Both the position numbers and the translations under genes were made by a program. Shown piece by piece: positions 2,836 through 4,563 of a DNA stretch of 64,000 nucleotides; position 1 is the first letter of the stretch; each line of letters opens with the position of its first letter. The notes under the pieces are model-generated. The model saw nothing but the letters and a program-made list of their open reading frames with translations, ran no database searches and had not been told where the DNA came from. The stretch is from Natrinema hispanicum (GTDB lineage Archaea; Halobacteriota; Halobacteria; Halobacteriales; Natrialbaceae): positions 62,001-126,000 of the forward strand of contig NZ_FOIC01000002.1 in the NCBI RefSeq assembly GCF_900111485.1, read 5' to 3'.

Positions 2836-4029
2836 TCAGATTCCCTGACTCATCAGGTGGCTGCGCAACACGTCGGCTTCCTTGTTCCCCGCGCCGGTGT
2901 TGACGATGACGACCGTCTCGTCGCCGTCGAACGCACCGCGCTCGGCGAGTTCCCACGCCCCGCTTGCGGCTGCCGCGGCGCTCGGGATCGGCTCGAGTCC
3001 GGTCGACTGTGCGACTCGCACGGCGGCCTCGAGGATGTCCGGATCGTCGGTCGCGACCGCACCGCCATCGGTCTCGCGGACGGCCTCGAGGACGCGCGGG
3101 CTTGCGACAGGGTCGGGAATCTCGAGTTCGCCACAGATCGTGTCCGGGTGTTCGACCGGTTCGTGGTCGTCGCGGTCGGCGTCGAACGCCTCGACGATCG
3201 GGGCACAGCCTGTAGCCTGTGTCGCATACAGCGCGGGCGTCTCGTCGGTCAGCCCGAGTTCGCGGAACTCGGCTGCGCCTTTGGCCGCACCGACGAGGCC
3301 GACGCCGTCCCCGGTGGGGAAACAGACCACGTCGGGGACCTCCCACTCGAGCTGTTCGACGAGTTCGTAAAACAGCGTCTTCGCGCCCTCGTGGCGATAG
3401 GGAGTCTCGAACGATCGGAGGGAGTACCAGTCATCGTGTTCGCCCAGTCCCTCCTCGAAGGCTCCGACGGCGTCGCCGAAGCGGCCGCCGACGACGTTCA
3501 TGTCGCCGCCATGGACGTTGACCATCGCCTTGTTCGTAAAGCCCGACCGCGAGGGGAGATACGCGTGTGCCTCGAGTCCTGCACGGGCTGCGTAGGCCGC
3601 GACAGCCTGCCCGCTGTTGCCAGTCGAGGGCAGTGCGACATCGGTCGCGCCGTGTTGGGCTGCCGCCGTGACGGCGACCGATGCGCCGCGGTCCGTCCTC
3701 GAGCCCGTTGGATTCCGGCCCTCGTCTTTGATCAGCACGCGCTCGACGCCGAGTTCGGTGGCCAGATCGGGGCAGTCGACCAGTGCAGTCGCGCCCTCTT
3801 GAGTCGTTACTGCAGACTCACGCGAAAACGGGAGCAACTCCGCGTAGCGCCACTGCCCGTCGAACGGCCGAGCGGCGAGCGTCTCGCGGTCGAGGTCGAT
3901 CGCGTCGTACTCGTAGGTTGGGTCGAGCGTGCCGTCACAGTCCGGACAGCGGTGAGACTCCGCAGCGGCGTCGACGGTGGCCCCGCAGTCGACACACTCG
4001 AGACCGGTAAAGGCGTCTGTGGTTTCCAT
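2836..4029 (-). CDS. Threonine synthase-like protein lacking the PLP lysine
   Basis: A 397-residue fold-type II PLP-enzyme homologue. An N-terminal zinc ribbon (C12, C15, C28, C31) precedes the catalytic domain, as in archaeal threonine synthases, which turn O-phosphohomoserine into threonine. The phosphate-cradle motif STGNSGQAV (about residues 135-143) and the KDEGRNPTGS segment (101-110) are kept. The family motif GSFKDRG, whose Lys forms the Schiff base with PLP, reads GSRTDRG here: Arg111-Thr112, encoded by AGG-ACG at 3694-3699. No frameshift is seen. It may be a paralogue with a non-catalytic or altered role rather than the organism's threonine synthase. The fold is clear; the function is not. 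Confidence 0.85.
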   Translation of the reverse strand: METTDAFTGLECVDCGATVDAAAESHRCPDCDGTLDPTYEYDAIDLDRETLAARPFDGQWRYAELLPFSRESAVTTQEGATALVDCPDLATELGVERVLIKDEGRNPTGSRTDRGASVAVTAAAQHGATDVALPSTGNSGQAVAAYAARAGLEAHAYLPSRSGFTNKAMVNVHGGDMNVVGGRFGDAVGAFEEGLGEHDDWYSLRSFETPYRHEGAKTLFYELVEQLEWEVPDVVCFPTGDGVGLVGAAKGAAEFRELGLTDETPALYATQATGCAPIVEAFDADRDDHEPVEHPDTICGELEIPDPVASPRVLEAVRETDGGAVATDDPDILEAAVRVAQSTGLEPIPSAAAAASGAWELAERGAFDGDETVVIVNTGAGNKEADVLRSHLMSQGI

Positions 4030-4162: not shown

Positions 4163-4339
4163 TCAGTTGTCGCCGGCTTTCGACTGCCACTCGTAGTCGC
4201 GGCGTTTGGCCGATTTACCGAAGCCGCACGACGAGCAGACCTTCTTCTTCGTGTGGTAGGACTTCTCTCCGCAGCGACGACACTTGGTGTGGGTCGTCTT
4301 GTTTTTCTTGCCTTGTGTCGGGGTTCCTGCACCAGTCAT
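4163..4339 (-). CDS. rpl37e: 50S ribosomal protein L37e
   Basis: A 58-residue zinc-ribbon protein of the large subunit. It is Lys/Arg-rich with four cysteines in two CxxC pairs (KCRRCG at residues 20-23 and VCSSCG at 35-38), a typical eL37 signature, and it binds 23S rRNA. Its ATG (4337-4339) overlaps the stop of the upstream LSm gene in an ATGA arrangement, so the two are translationally coupled. The LSm-L37e pairing is widely conserved in archaea. The stop is TGA at 4163-4165. The protein is unusually basic for a haloarchaeon, as expected for a short rRNA-buried protein. Confidence 0.95.
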
Positions 4340-4563
4340 GGAGTGATCGAGACGACGTTGTCGCCGCGTATAATGGTTGTGTCTTCGACCGGGGCATCCT
4401 CTTCGACGCTCCCCTCGACGGGGATCGTCACGTCTTCGAGCACCAGATTCATATGCTGATCATAGCCGGCGAGTTCGCCAACGTGTTCGTCGCCACTCTT
4501 GAGTCGTACCGTGACGCGGTCACCGAGCGACGCCTCAAGGACGTCCAGCGGTCGTCCACTCAT
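4336..4563 (-). CDS. Sm-like archaeal RNA-binding protein (LSm)
   Basis: A 75-residue protein with an Sm fold that forms a heptameric ring and binds U-rich or small RNAs. Sm1 spans about residues 14-45 ([20 protein letters not shown] and MNLVLEDV), and Sm2 is the [10 protein letters not shown] segment at the C-terminus. An acidic insert between them is typical of haloarchaeal LSm. The ATG at 4563 gives [10 protein letters not shown]; upstream frame extensions have no LSm similarity. It is the first gene of the LSm-L37e operon and overlaps the next gene by four bases. Function in this organism (tRNA or sRNA metabolism) is inferred from the family. Confidence 0.95.

Follow-up and report, generated by a model that had tools for sequence, protein, structure and literature searches.

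The thrCx locus and its product

The window considered here is the whole stretch of 64,000 nucleotides analyzed from the genome of Natrinema hispanicum (contig NZ_FOIC01000002.1). On its reverse strand it carries a gene referred to below as thrCx, an open reading frame with an ATG start and, in the ORF list of the window, zero internal stops. In Natrinema this gene lies between rpl37e and pcrB. The features needed in what follows are:

1653–2354, (-) strand: pcrB family, downstream neighbour (PF01884, 175 bits; synteny)
2836–4029, (-) strand: thrCx, a Lys-less protein of the fold-type-II PLP family, 397 aa (ORF, profiles, AF2 model and Foldseek)
3100–3108, (-) strand: V308, A309 and S310 (GAS in the Lys-bearing form; PAS, AGG and others in the Lys-less form), from comparison of alignments
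3127–3129, (-) strand: Glu301, Gly in the Lys-bearing form; the majority of Lys-less copies in Natrialbaceae, and 17/17 of those in family f4, have Glu
3295–3315, (-) strand: TGDGVGL (residues 239–245), once the PLP phosphate loop; 30/30 Lys-less genomes tested have lost G241
3376–3402, (-) strand: PYRHEGAKT (210–218), near-frozen with or without the Lys, apart from the replacement of K216 by A, part of the Lys-less signature
3505–3519, (-) strand: NVHGG (171–175), near-frozen in both forms according to dN/dS
3607–3627, (-) strand: STGNSGQ (135–141), where Lys-bearing orthologues have SAGNAGQ; replacement of A136 by T or P marks the Lys-less form
3685–3729, (-) strand: KDEGRNPTGSRTDRG, residues 101–115, the motif expected to hold the PLP lysine, with Arg111-Thr112 at 3694–3699
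3937–3996, (-) strand: N-terminal zinc ribbon with Cys12, Cys15, Cys28 and Cys31, all four unchanged in 30/30 Lys-less genomes of the paired-genome test
4163–4339, (-) strand: rpl37e-like ribosomal protein, 58 aa, upstream neighbour (named by eye from its translation)
4336–4563, (-) strand: Lsm/Sm-like protein overlapping the start of rpl37e (named by eye)

In the Natrialbaceae, the Lys-bearing and Lys-less forms of thrCx both occur in the block lsm - rpl37e - thrCx, followed by pcrB in many genera. Outside this family the neighbours include a metallophosphoesterase, an FAD oxidoreductase and a DtxR-like regulator, named by eye and without functional link; none of the neighbours there consistently accompanies thrCx or points to a partner.

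The original prediction rested on the sequence GSRTDRG, found where PLP enzymes have GSFKDRG, and the reading frame and codons bear it out. Codons 111 and 112 are AGG and ACG, located at 3699–3697 and 3696–3694 (cgtcct on the forward strand), and Arg111-Thr112 replaces Phe-Lys. Several other residues of the motif, K101, D102, N106, T108, D113 and R114, are conserved in Lys-bearing and Lys-less thrCx alike. A sequencing error at 3694–3699 had been named as one way in which the observation could fail. Such an error, or an assembly artefact, now has a negligible probability and is refuted by the presence of GSRTDRG in independent relatives: the closest ones (94% and 97% identical, from Natrinema limicola and N. 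hispanicum) were sequenced separately and have the same residues, and losses of the lysine are seen in many genera.

Relationship to threonine synthases

The product of thrCx matches the fold-type-II family profile PF00291 with 213.7 bits (cut-off 35) and the family NF006050 (PRK08197) with 328.8 bits (cut-off 303). Its score against TIGR00260, the threonine synthase (ThrC) equivalog, is 156.2 bits and falls below the cut-off of 167.1. The AF2 model has a pLDDT of 90.6 and finds its best Foldseek matches in the threonine synthases 2d1f, 2zsj and 6nmx. With threonine synthases (TIGR00260; 2d1f, 2zsj, 1uim, 6nmx) the protein has in common the fold and the KxExxNPTG and PYRxEGxKT segments, and its identity to the solved bacterial enzymes reaches 30–34% across the catalytic domain. 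It differs from them not only in its sub-cut-off score but in the cofactor site itself: the Schiff-base lysine of the N-terminal GSxK motif is absent, the phosphate and Asn loops are altered, and in place of the STGNTS and GNAG substrate and cofactor loops of ThrC it has STGNSG and GDGV.

These alterations modify two elements of the earlier description, which had presented the protein as otherwise intact and STGNSG as its phosphate loop. The actual phosphate loop is the glycine-rich TGGGVG of Lys-bearing orthologues, which here reads TGDGVG. STGNSG is itself a changed sequence, almost every Lys-bearing orthologue having SAGNAG there, and some ten further pocket sites have been replaced. The Lys-bearing haloarchaeal members of NF006050/PRK08197 are true orthologues of thrCx, occupying the same locus with up to ~80% identity (79% for the one of Natronorubrum halalkaliphilum). 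They retain FKDRG, SAGNAG and TGGGVG, and Lys-less thrCx differs from them at about a dozen sites in concert.

The genome of the window holds a separate, canonical ThrC (TIGR00260, 291 bits), the second, Lys-bearing thrC whose presence had been proposed as a check; it has the lysine together with STGNTS and GNAG. An orthologue of this canonical enzyme was found in 35/35 genomes checked and, in 30/30 of those for which DNA was fetched, it carries NPTGSFKDR, STGNTS and GNAG; the canonical copy L003/L355 has both the STGNTS and the GNAG loops. It follows that thrCx is not the main threonine synthase, and the suggestion of a mutated main enzyme is thereby excluded. The substrate of the Lys-bearing orthologue is itself uncertain, since the example L054 has SAGNAG and TGGGVG loops and scores 166.2 bits against TIGR00260, again under the cut-off. 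In Haloferax volcanii, transposon insertion in thrC3 (HVO_2969) causes auxotrophy (PMC4300041); HVO_2969 may or may not be the orthologue of thrCx.

Distribution of the two forms

The named sampling comprised 80 GTDB records, to which further genomes were added. thrCx is near-universal in haloarchaea, with 369 of the 391 genomes of the class giving a match at E < 1e-90, and the Lys-bearing form (GTFKDRG) makes up about half of the sequences examined. A motif survey of 162 unique orthologues found 97 with Phe-Lys, 59 without Lys, 5 with GTSKDRG and a single Lys-bearing outgroup paralogue. Almost all of these proteins are 393–401 aa long, a few Lys-less ones reaching 412–419 aa, and no stops interrupt them. 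One long copy, in N. hispanicum DSM 18328 (L040:6001-7192), has a frame change near residue 372 that produces an altered C-terminus and a length of 419 aa and that is either real or a sequencing error.

The lysine is missing from Natrinema, Natronorubrum, Natronolimnohabitans, Salinadaptatus, Natrarchaeobius, Halococcus, Halospeciosus, Halarchaeum and other genera; of the 28 other Natrinema genomes, almost none has Phe-Lys. Natrialba, Natronococcus, Haladaptatus, Halorussus and others still have Lys-bearing thrCx. The Halobacterium salinarum protein reads GTFRDRG and Halobacterium relatives with Lys exist. Both kinds of copy are present together in four genomes of a family other than Natrialbaceae. 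Among more distant haloarchaeal copies, which belong mainly to families f3 and f4 and are 39–58% identical to the Lys-bearing query, Lys was missing in 30/30 examined; it is retained in non-haloarchaeal homologues and in canonical ThrC.

The discovery of Lys at this site in close relatives had been put forward as grounds for abandoning the prediction. Formally this has happened, as several Natrinema relatives (82–86% identical; L044, L047 and others) read GTSKDRG. The prediction stands nonetheless, because these sequences, though they have the Lys, replace Phe by Ser and show all the remaining pocket changes of the Lys-less form. Judged from the alignments, their Lys is one residue among those found at a loosened site, and is apparently a chance regain or a late relic there.

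Concerted changes in the cofactor pocket

The extent of the remodelling was measured on a species tree of rpo genes, using 198 sites at which at most one of 30 Lys-bearing genomes deviates and independent pairs of genomes (n = 9) differing in Lys state, GTSKDRG sequences being grouped with the Lys-less ones. Ten sites, G241, F111, M219, G308, M76, K216, I184, A136, G301 and A139, shift together with K112 in 6.5–9 of the 9 pairs, and S310 and G379 show a weaker co-change. The reverse direction, a pocket site changing against Lys, is essentially never seen in the independent pairs. In every Lys-less genome 96 of the 198 conserved sites are unaltered, the four zinc-ribbon cysteines among them.

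The replacements are of two kinds. At some sites they are restricted: A136 gives way to T or P, G301 in most cases to E, G308 to A, P, T or V, and S310 to G. At others they are diverse, position 241 accepting A, I, V, T, D, E, S, L, H or Q and position 112 T, A, R, K, E, M, L, D, G, N or V. The Lys-less members of the 162 orthologues have gained no conserved Lys, His or Cys of their own. Asn138 and the C-terminal Thr378 persist in many Lys-less proteins, which could thus still bind PLP without covalent attachment.

Selection on thrCx

Pooled dN/dS is 0.148 for the Lys-bearing form (39 pairs) and 0.166 for the Lys-less form (24 pairs), computed as Nei-Gojobori counts rather than with a codon model on non-overlapping pairs of close relatives, mostly Natrialbaceae. 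Taken with the presence of intact orthologues in the same position and of a separate canonical ThrC, these values support the part of the original prediction that proposed a paralogue without catalysis, or with a new use, maintained by selection; an intact gene that stays under purifying selection after its catalytic residue has gone is what one expects of a pseudoenzyme. The pocket set of the pooled analysis was partly picked from its own behaviour. A second set of four PLP motifs (residues 108–114, 135–141, 238–244 and 376–381) was defined by homology and fixed after the changing sites had been seen, so that it is less circular but not blind. On this set, dN relative to whole-gene dS is 0.021 in the Lys-bearing form (95% interval 0.009–0.035) and 0.140 in the Lys-less form (0.073–0.235). 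The phosphate loop goes from 0.00 to 0.19. Outside the four motifs dN/dS is 0.157 in the Lys-bearing against 0.168 in the Lys-less form: constraint there is equal with or without the catalytic machinery. Segments 171–175 and 210–218 taken together give 0.005 in the Lys-bearing and 0.014 in the Lys-less form, values that are descriptive and no test, the segments having been chosen after their invariance was seen. Purifying selection on the Lys-less pocket has not vanished altogether (0.14 rather than 1), and a different chemistry, instead of none, could be the reason.

Number and mode of the transitions

By parsimony, a gene tree with the motif columns removed gives eight changes of Lys state and a larger gene tree seven; both are affected by long Lys-less branches. 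A species tree built from three rpo genes of one operon in 60 genomes gives 12 changes, nine of them forced by well-supported branches. Parsimony on these trees suggests at least seven to eight changes of state, read as losses of the lysine, across haloarchaea. The large tree places copies of other families within the Natrialbaceae, a nesting that we read as long-branch attraction, and it was used solely for the lower bound of changes.

Within the Natrialbaceae, the protein tree unites most Lys-less forms and the rpo species tree disperses them. Depending on the tree, between about 1–3 and 9–12 losses would have occurred in this family, reflecting either repeated loss or exchange of Lys-bearing and Lys-less alleles at the locus. 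Third codon positions and silent sites of thrCx are near saturation here, so that silent sites cannot decide between repeated loss and allelic replacement. In one-clade tests the species grouping was rejected for 2 of 5 groups, and only with the non-synonymous signal included; a comparison of flanking sequences for allele exchange was suggestive only. Three loci, L054, L038 and L129, have Lys-bearing thrCx in otherwise Lys-less genera, and in L038 and L129 several flanking genes are closest to those of Lys-less relatives. Gene-by-gene replacement is possible in these three cases.

A probable pseudoenzyme

We consider it probable that Lys-less thrCx is a PLP-independent pseudoenzyme with a non-catalytic role, reached repeatedly from a Lys-bearing ancestor; we infer that it does not bind PLP and that it binds a ligand or a partner. 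The ancestral protein would have combined a PLP-dependent activity, probably other than threonine synthesis, with a second function independent of PLP. The first would have become dispensable in many haloarchaeal lineages, where the lysine and about a dozen residues surrounding the cofactor would have changed together. At several of these sites Gly or Ala gave way to larger or charged residues (A136T/P, G241X, G301E, G308A/P), which would leave the cofactor site closed or filled anew. The second function would have kept selection on the fold, the zinc ribbon and the 171–175 and 210–218 segments, and the present protein would bind a small ligand or a protein partner as a sensor, a regulatory subunit or a scaffold. 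The equal constraint outside the motifs makes two functions in the ancestor, with the PLP one dropped many times, the simplest account. The segment of Arg212 and Lys217, which we take to be the substrate-phosphate side by reference to Thermus ThrC structures, is retained, and binding of a small ligand is therefore plausible.

The main rival to this reading is that the Lys-less form is still an enzyme, acting through non-covalently bound PLP, another cofactor or none, with the remodelled pocket (Glu301 for instance) as its active site. Separate lineages do converge on the same replacements (A136T/P, G301E, G308A/P, S310G) and pocket dN/dS stays at 0.14–0.17 instead of rising to 1; however, positions 112 and 241 accept many residues, unlike a catalytic residue, and no new invariant nucleophile or base has appeared. 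On balance we regard new chemistry as unlikely. Far less probable is a redundant enzyme losing its function after mutation of its lysine. Such a relic could be suspected from the presence of other ThrC paralogues and from the loss of the once extreme constraint on the PLP motifs, but the gene is retained at full length and without stops in nearly the whole class, its dN/dS outside the motifs is that of the Lys-bearing form and its 96 conserved sites are unaltered, so that decay is already largely refuted. An active threonine synthase forming its aldimine on another lysine has a slighter chance still. The fold is that of a threonine synthase and K101, K167, K217 and K383 are conserved; yet these lysines are equally conserved in Lys-bearing orthologues, so that none is new, and the protein has also lost the phosphate and SAGNAG loops and scores under the TIGR00260 cut-off.

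Catalytically dead paralogues of metabolic enzymes resemble thrCx in that the catalytic residue is gone, the fold is retained and a canonical paralogue is encoded in the same genome. One is the dead paralogue of trypanosomatid deoxyhypusine synthase (PMC3663545). Others are antizyme inhibitor and, in serine palmitoyltransferase, the LCB1 subunit, PLP examples that belong to other fold types than thrCx. What distinguishes thrCx from such cases is that the loss has happened repeatedly inside a single orthologous group, with sister species differing in it. The open-access literature searched contained no earlier description of a Lys-less ThrC.

A pseudoenzyme origin of this kind gives thrCx a broader interest. 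In one near-universal orthologous gene, a catalytic protein would have turned into a cofactor-less one many times, with both forms in sister species at the same locus and selection on the rest of the protein unchanged. Nature itself would thereby show, for each residue, whether constraint is due to catalysis or not. Lys-bearing and Lys-less pairs of sister species offer a direct experimental handle in the form of gene swaps. In many haloarchaeal genomes the annotation 'threonine synthase' is attached to a protein that cannot function as an ordinary PLP enzyme. More tentatively, and with the balance leaning somewhat against it, haloarchaea may have repeatedly and reproducibly made a PLP enzyme PLP-free by the same change at about a dozen sites, including the convergent replacement of Gly301 by Glu, thereby creating a new ligand-binding or catalytic site, and may have done so recently, the two forms alternating between sister species.

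Other observations

Elsewhere in the genome of the window, an MCM-like ORF of 1172 aa (L210:1074-4592, contig C50) seemingly contains an intein (VRGDTKVTLADG ... VSNGVISHN), as judged by eye. Another genome carries two full rpoB-type genes (G100:C1:1056922-1058718 and 1436396-1438192).
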